DNA of 64,000 nt from a virus, in the IMG/VR virus record IMGVR_UViG_3300037042_002125, positions 62,001 through 126,000 of that record, one strand, 5' to 3'. The notes under the pieces were generated by a model. The model ran no database searches. It saw only the letters and a list, made by a program, of their open reading frames with translations, and had not been told where the DNA came from. Made by a program: the position numbers and the translations under genes. Positions within the stretch are counted from its first letter, which is position 1; the number at the start of each line of letters is the position of its first letter. Shown one piece after another: positions 12,322-12,740 of the stretch.

Positions 12322-12546
12322 GAAAAAGGTGCCCAGCTTCAAGGGATGAAGGCTCCGTCGTTATCAGGAGGCTGGGCCAGATTCAGCTTACGCTAAACCT
12401 GCTTCACCGCGGGTGCCCTTTCAGGCAACCATGCGGAAGTTTTCGTCATTGGCGAGTACTTAATTGCCTACAAGTTTAACGAGCGTACAGACTAGCTCGG
12501 GTTGTCAGCATCCATTATCTACCGCTGTCGAAACCAGTGCACCCCC
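12322..12546 (-). ncRNA. ssrA: Permuted tmRNA: coding piece (5' tRNA-like half and tag)
   Basis: The minus strand begins GGGGGTGCACTGGTTTCGACAG, the conserved 5' end of tmRNA with its reduced D arm. The first seven bases GGGGGTG pair with CACCTCC at the 3' end of the acceptor piece, including a G3-U pair, the alanine identity signal. The tag frame starts at 12453, 93 nt from the 5' end: GCC AAT GAC GAA AAC ... TGA, giving ANDENFRMVA. After the tag come hairpins, the last GCCCAGC/GCTGGGC (12331-12377) followed by ACCTTTTTC, probably a terminator, so the mature 3' end of this piece is near 12322-12330. The T arm and CCA are not downstream but upstream (12645-12740), hence a circularly permuted two-piece gene. 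Confidence 0.9.
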
Positions 12547-12644
12547 ATCAGAAACATACTCGCGCCCAAGCTCATACCAACCTGTACACAGTCGGTCATC
12601 TAGCCTACGGGTCAGTTTAAGTAGGCTTTCCTTGAATACGTTTC
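12547..12644 (-). other. Intervening segment between the two tmRNA pieces
   Basis: 98 nt joining the CCA of the acceptor piece to G1 of the coding piece in the precursor. It contains an AGCCTAC/GTAGGCT hairpin. In known permuted tmRNAs such a segment is removed by RNase P and 3' processing; the same is inferred here. Confidence 0.75.
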
Positions 12645-12740
12645 TGGTGGAGGTGGCGGGAGTCGAACCCGCGTCCAGCAATCATTCACTTCTGCGTCTG
12701 TGCCATATCCGAAGAAACGACACCACAACCATATGAAGGT
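12645..12740 (-). ncRNA. ssrA: Permuted tmRNA: acceptor piece (T arm and CCA)
   Basis: Minus strand reads ...ATTGCTGGAC, then a T arm GCGGG-TTCGACT-CCCGC, then CACCTCC-A-CCA. The T arm and acceptor strand are those of tmRNA, and CACCTCC pairs with the GGGGGTG that starts the coding piece. ATTGCT can pair with AGCGGT after the D arm of the coding piece, the expected start of helix P2. The CCA is encoded. The 5' limit of this piece is uncertain; about 12740 is a guess from the next strong hairpin. Confidence 0.88.

Follow-up and report, generated by a model that had tools for sequence, protein, structure and literature searches.

The locus raises three questions: whether a phage genome encodes a tmRNA whose parts are transcribed in permuted order, whether such an RNA would work, and what it tells of the host. 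The window is the whole stretch of DNA that was analysed, 64,000 nucleotides from a 222,078-base virus record, and a complete circularly permuted tmRNA gene lies on its minus strand, at approximately 12737-12322. The Rfam model tmRNA_permuted (RF04321) matched it with 85.3 bits, exceeding the gathering score of 47, with an E-value of 6.3e-15 over the 64 kb searched, which places the gene in that family; ARAGORN reported a tmRNA* at c12330-12737 with the tag ANDENFRMVA*.

The first-pass annotation had described a T arm and CCA that precede the tmRNA 5' end in transcription, an acceptor stem joining the two across the permutation, and a tag frame 93 nt from that 5' end, and its coordinates and pairings were accurate (Table 1). 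The acceptor strands are complementary at 7/7 positions, with the G3-U alanine identity inside the 7-bp stem, and the tag, previously read as ANDENF, runs on to ANDENFRMVA and ends with a stop codon inside helix 5; the predicted pieces also match the sizes proposed for them, ~225 and ~95 nt. A standard T arm and CCA downstream of the tag, as in one-piece tmRNA (RF00023), had been named as the observation that would speak against permutation; it was looked for with the Rfam tmRNA models and ARAGORN and none was found, which rules out a one-piece tmRNA with an overlooked T arm. As for the type of the RNA, the proposed comparison of tmRNA covariance models gave beta_tmRNA (RF01850) as the best of the clan with 70.6 bits, yet under its own gathering score of 84, so that family membership by threshold is not reached. 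Judged by its sequence, the locus is a phage-encoded, circularly permuted tmRNA gene, betaproteobacterial in character, and to this extent the earlier interpretation stands.

Table 1. Parts of the permuted tmRNA gene and of the region adjoining it, in window coordinates.
Part	Position	Strand	Basis or remark
Structured non-coding region; candidate for an RNA of its own or for a stretch of the precursor	12740-13376	-	directly upstream of the tmRNA; strongly structured, z -10.1
Acceptor piece, first transcribed	12645-12737	-	ARAGORN start 12737; RF04321 match begins at 12707
T stem-loop GCGGG-UUCGACU-CCCGC	12656-12672	-	Rfam and pairing
Acceptor stem, 3' strand CACCUCC	12649-12655	-	7/7 pairs with 12546-12540, G3-U included
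Encoded discriminator and CCA (ACCA)	12645-12648	-	sequence
98-nt intervening segment, predicted to be cut out	12547-12644	-	11-bp terminal stem 12644-12634/12561-12551, then UGAU opposite ACCA
Coding piece, ~217-225 nt	12322-12546	-	RNase P-type 5' end 12546 by homology; ARAGORN end 12330
Acceptor stem, 5' strand GGGGGUG	12540-12546	-	pairing with CACCUCC
Helix 2, coding strand CAGCGGU	12521-12527	-	7/7 pairs with AUUGCUG 12682-12676, two of them G-U
Pseudoknot 1, S1 CGAGC/GCUCG, S2 GUCUGUA/UGUAGGC	12466-12499	-	by hand: S1 5/5 pairs; S2 7/7 pairs, of which three G-U
Tag reading frame ANDENFRMVA*	12421-12453	-	ARAGORN and sequence
Helix 5, stop codon in loop	12412-12430	-	sequence
Branched terminator-like 3' structure GCCCAGC...GCUGGGC ACC UUUUU (U5)	12323-12377	-	fold

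Regarding the precursor, the intervening segment closes on itself by consecutive pairs (GAAACGUAUUC/GAGUAUGUUUC), and between this stem and the acceptor stem ACCA faces UGAU. Acceptor strands were located in 78 unique permuted tmRNAs (73 viral and 5 bacterial); the G3-U pair occurs in all 78 under a locating rule that accepted only GGG starts and took the site with the best pairing, and UGAU stands before the 5' end in 45. Where the spacer measures 20 nt or more, as in 72 of these tmRNAs, its terminal stem has on average 9.8 pairs; mononucleotide shuffling of these spacers gives 5.0. At least seven of the first eight pairs are kept in 53 of these 72, with several standard pair types at most positions and kinship ignored; because those sequences were selected for a clear stem, the argument lies in the diversity of pair types and not in the count of 53. 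This covariation among viral relatives supports a common, structured precursor as the predicted form of the transcript. Four viral contigs, one of them discussed below as L174, have permuted tmRNAs with a spacer of only ~2-10 nt from CCA to 5' end. Co-folding of the two pieces gave structures that 10 of 100 shuffles equalled in stability and 38 of 100 in interaction energy; it was rejected as proof of their assembly, which rests on homology. A search of the minus strand across 11700-13700 gave no sigma-70-like promoter, though phage promoters may be of another type.

As for the carrier, its tail sheath and major capsid proteins are 44-56% identical to the nearest ones, from the Burkholderia phages BcepSauron and BcepSaruman and the Achromobacter phage Motura. 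It is a 222-kb jumbo myophage nearest to these three, and the same two proteins make a Burkholderiales host likely, not certain. The gene content is that of a phage, with gyrase-like subunits, tail sheath and capsid; the tmRNA lies within a continuous minus-strand block of phage genes, with an acyl carrier protein and a dCTP deaminase encoded upstream on the same strand, and ARAGORN found one tRNA-Met in the window. Elsewhere, on the plus strand, two consecutive radical SAM proteins are encoded at 35561-38144, in a block that also holds a PAPS-reductase-like protein (45647-46234). That the record is of metagenomic type, and that bacteria have permuted tmRNAs as well, would suit a chimeric assembly or bacterial contamination, but the place of the gene inside the phage block of a 222-kb viral record, together with the lack of a close match among the fetched bacterial tmRNAs, leaves this explanation next to no probability.

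The preferred reading, with a probability of about 0.82, is that of a functional phage-encoded two-piece tmRNA, horizontally acquired as an accessory gene: three detectors agree, and the acceptor stem, G3-U pair, T arm, CCA, helix 2, pseudoknot 1 and in-frame tag are all intact. The sub-threshold beta_tmRNA score, the co-folding result and the negative search for a sigma-70-like promoter within 11700-13700 speak against it. The precursor would be transcribed with the acceptor piece first, and its intervening segment would fold so as to prolong the acceptor stem; tRNA-processing enzymes of the host would then excise the spacer, with RNase P acting at the 5' end of the coding piece and endo-/exonucleases at the CCA, leaving two pieces held together via the acceptor stem and helix 2. 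Host AlaRS would charge the RNA through the G3-U pair, and host SmpB and EF-Tu would deliver it to stalled ribosomes, with release of the ribosomes and tagging of the product; host proteases of the ClpXP kind would probably recognise the ANDENFRMVA tag. The phage would likely benefit by keeping up ribosome recycling when infection yields many broken or non-stop mRNAs.

The reliance on host factors follows from a search for smpB: PF01668 had no match in the 222-kb record, the same search being positive in 10 of 14 control genomes, and an autonomous trans-translation module, with tmRNA and SmpB in one genome, was not found. With no detectable smpB, the phage RNA must borrow SmpB, AlaRS, RNase P and proteases from the host. 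Because SmpB has to be shared, a decoy or modulator is a live alternative, though an unlikely one: the phage RNA would compete for host SmpB/EF-Tu, or its -MVA end would alter the fate of tagged proteins, so that trans-translation is inhibited or reprogrammed and not supplemented. The draw on the host pool fits such a role, and phage DS6A offers a parallel, its tmRNA consisting only of a tRNA-like domain and resembling a molecule shown to inhibit host tmRNA (PMC4131195; PMC11915505); the window gene, however, keeps a complete tag frame, a pseudoknot and the alanine identity, which a pure decoy would not need. The end of the tag bears on the same issue. It is -MVA and not -AA; an AA end occurs in 68 of the 73 unique viral permuted tags and a VA end in only 3, the window tag and that of L174 included; unusual as this end is, VA-ended tags still promote degradation in E. 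coli, where the half-life of LacI at 37 °C is ~13 min with an LVA tag versus ~8 min with LAA (PMC3511798). Since a VA-ended ssrA tag means fast degradation in that species, the simplest reading of ANDENFRMVA is, by analogy, a working degron. If phage tags act unlike host tags, they would provide a direct test of the use of ribosome rescue by phages.

Permuted tmRNAs are common in viral sequence collections: a strict permuted pattern occurred in 32 viral contigs, a looser pattern of the acceptor end, to which one-piece genes also conform, in at least 120 stretches of viral contigs, and ARAGORN called 84 unique permuted genes across the loci collected, a few of them probably false. Two-piece tmRNA genes also pass unannotated in isolate phages: three public records, those of Alcaligenes phage vB_Af_QDWS595, Bordetella phage vB_BbrM_PHB04 and Xanthomonas phage X1, contain one. 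These three resemble the window gene in architecture, in having beta_tmRNA as best clan model (its cut-off being exceeded only by vB_Af_QDWS595) and in their long spacers with a terminal stem; they differ from it in belonging to other phage groups and in their tags (ANDNVYAAAA, ANDDYIRAAA and VAANDADYSVARYA). In a tmRNA tree of about 200 columns, whose deeper branches are unsettled, the nearest sequence is that of viral contig L174 (support 100/89); its tag, ANDSSYLKVA, is VA-ended like that of the window, but it has almost no spacer between the pieces and different neighbouring genes.

No permuted tmRNA was found in 5 related isolates, in 14 contigs sharing the dCTP deaminase or in 13 sharing the capsid, several of these records being fragments and one contig possibly BcepSauron itself. 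Inheritance within the phage lineage is unsupported by this search; because no related record searched has the gene, it looks like an accessory acquisition and, as far as sequence comparison goes, like a mobile accessory. The same absence, and a core that shares no more than 67% identity with any of the permuted tmRNAs fetched, would also be expected of a passenger from a bacterium or another phage, decaying and without present function. This is quite improbable, as all structural elements and the open tag frame are intact despite the divergence, which suggests selection; the functional tmRNA remains the preferred reading.

The first-pass annotation had also held that a permuted tmRNA constrains the host, and this part of its interpretation proved weak. 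Xanthomonas and Bordetella have one-piece tmRNA, so the permuted genes in their phages mean that a permuted phage tmRNA does not imply a permuted host. A sampling of Burkholderiales gave just 5 genomes in 150 above the permuted cut-off, with 14 candidates scored per genome, so that some permuted genes may be missed; ARAGORN read the gene as permuted in three of the five and as one-piece in another, and the fifth has a permuted copy plus a one-piece gene. Finally, according to PMC9004378, the Methylophilales phage Melnitz has an alphaproteobacterial-type permuted tmRNA and a host of another class. On these grounds, host assignment from the type of tmRNA was rejected as weak, the capsid and tail sheath proteins being the better guide to a Burkholderiales host, and tmRNA architecture is weakened as a host predictor.

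A separate observation concerns the genus of Herbaspirillum sp. YR522, where a permuted tmRNA clears the cut-off by a wide margin in 10 of 34 genomes, and several of these plainly have it beside a one-piece tmRNA. Seven of the permuted tags were called by ARAGORN and share a conserved -GT end (ANDSQFLAYGT, ANEPQFVAYGT, ANESQYLAVGT and others), and the other three genes have LAYGT/IAYGT-like tags, hand-read from the alignment, with synonymous changes; this second tmRNA with its conserved non-AA tag merits separate study. Extra permuted tmRNAs with odd tags (ANDANYLVQVYG; VNNVY...) occur in genomes of Herminiimonas, a proteobacterial MAG and Noviherbaspirillum, which also have one-piece tmRNAs.

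A second structured element, 637 nt long, spans the gap from the tmRNA to the acyl carrier protein gene and, on the tmRNA strand, folds much more stably than its shuffles. The z-score in Table 1 comes from 20 shuffles; the 261 nt nearest the tmRNA (12740-13000, minus strand) have z -7.3 with 200 shuffles, and no other among 638 stretches of 200 nt was as extreme as 12801-13000 on the minus strand, at z -8.8 against -5.8 for the next (16 shuffles each). Rfam gave only chance-level miRNA and snoRNA matches, with E up to 10, and its GOLLD and ROOL models did not match. No homologues were found by blastn in phages or in the fetched tmRNA loci, no exact 20-mer match in viral contigs, and one chance-level match only (E 0.08) in related phage records. 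GOLLD and ROOL RNAs occur in phages and prophages near tRNA islands (PMC12286853), and the region recalls them by its size and its nearness to tRNA-like genes; as it lacks homologues, nothing is claimed beyond this resemblance, and it is a candidate orphan phage RNA. A small RNA module, in which the -MVA end of the two-piece tmRNA alters the fate of tagged proteins in a one-piece-tmRNA host while the 637-nt region acts as a separate GOLLD/ROOL-like RNA, is a doubtful extension of these data.

Two-piece phage tmRNAs are already known, and the window gene adds one more. PMC9004378 (2022) gives 133 unique phage tmRNA structures; ARAGORN classed 53 of them as two-piece, and marine or aquatic phages account for 50 of the 53, so the window gene is not the first of its kind. 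In PMC11915505, which tabulates 79 tmRNAs of bacteriophages, the permuted model applied here is described. With the 53 published cases, the three isolates and the many contigs, the notability once attached to a permuted tmRNA in a phage mostly falls away. The window gene extends two-piece phage tmRNAs, at first noted mostly from marine or aquatic sources, to a jumbo phage with relatives among Burkholderia and Achromobacter phages. The tmRNAs of Melnitz and of Pelagibacter phage Mosig, as described in PMC9004378, are like the window gene in being phage-encoded and permuted with a complete tag frame; their type is alphaproteobacterial, with Mosig scoring best against RF01849 among the clan models, whereas the best model here is the beta one, and a glutamine riboswitch is reported with them, none having been found with the window gene. 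The betaproteobacterial two-piece tmRNA (RF01850), as found in Azoarcus and in the three Burkholderiales genomes with a permuted reading, shares with the window gene the order of parts, the T arm and the GGGGGUG...CUGGUUUCGACAG core, and its tags begin with ANDENF or ANDERF, as does the window tag; the bacterial spacer is short (27 nt in Azoarcus) compared with the 98 nt of the phage gene, and the bacterial tags end in AA where the phage tag ends in VA.
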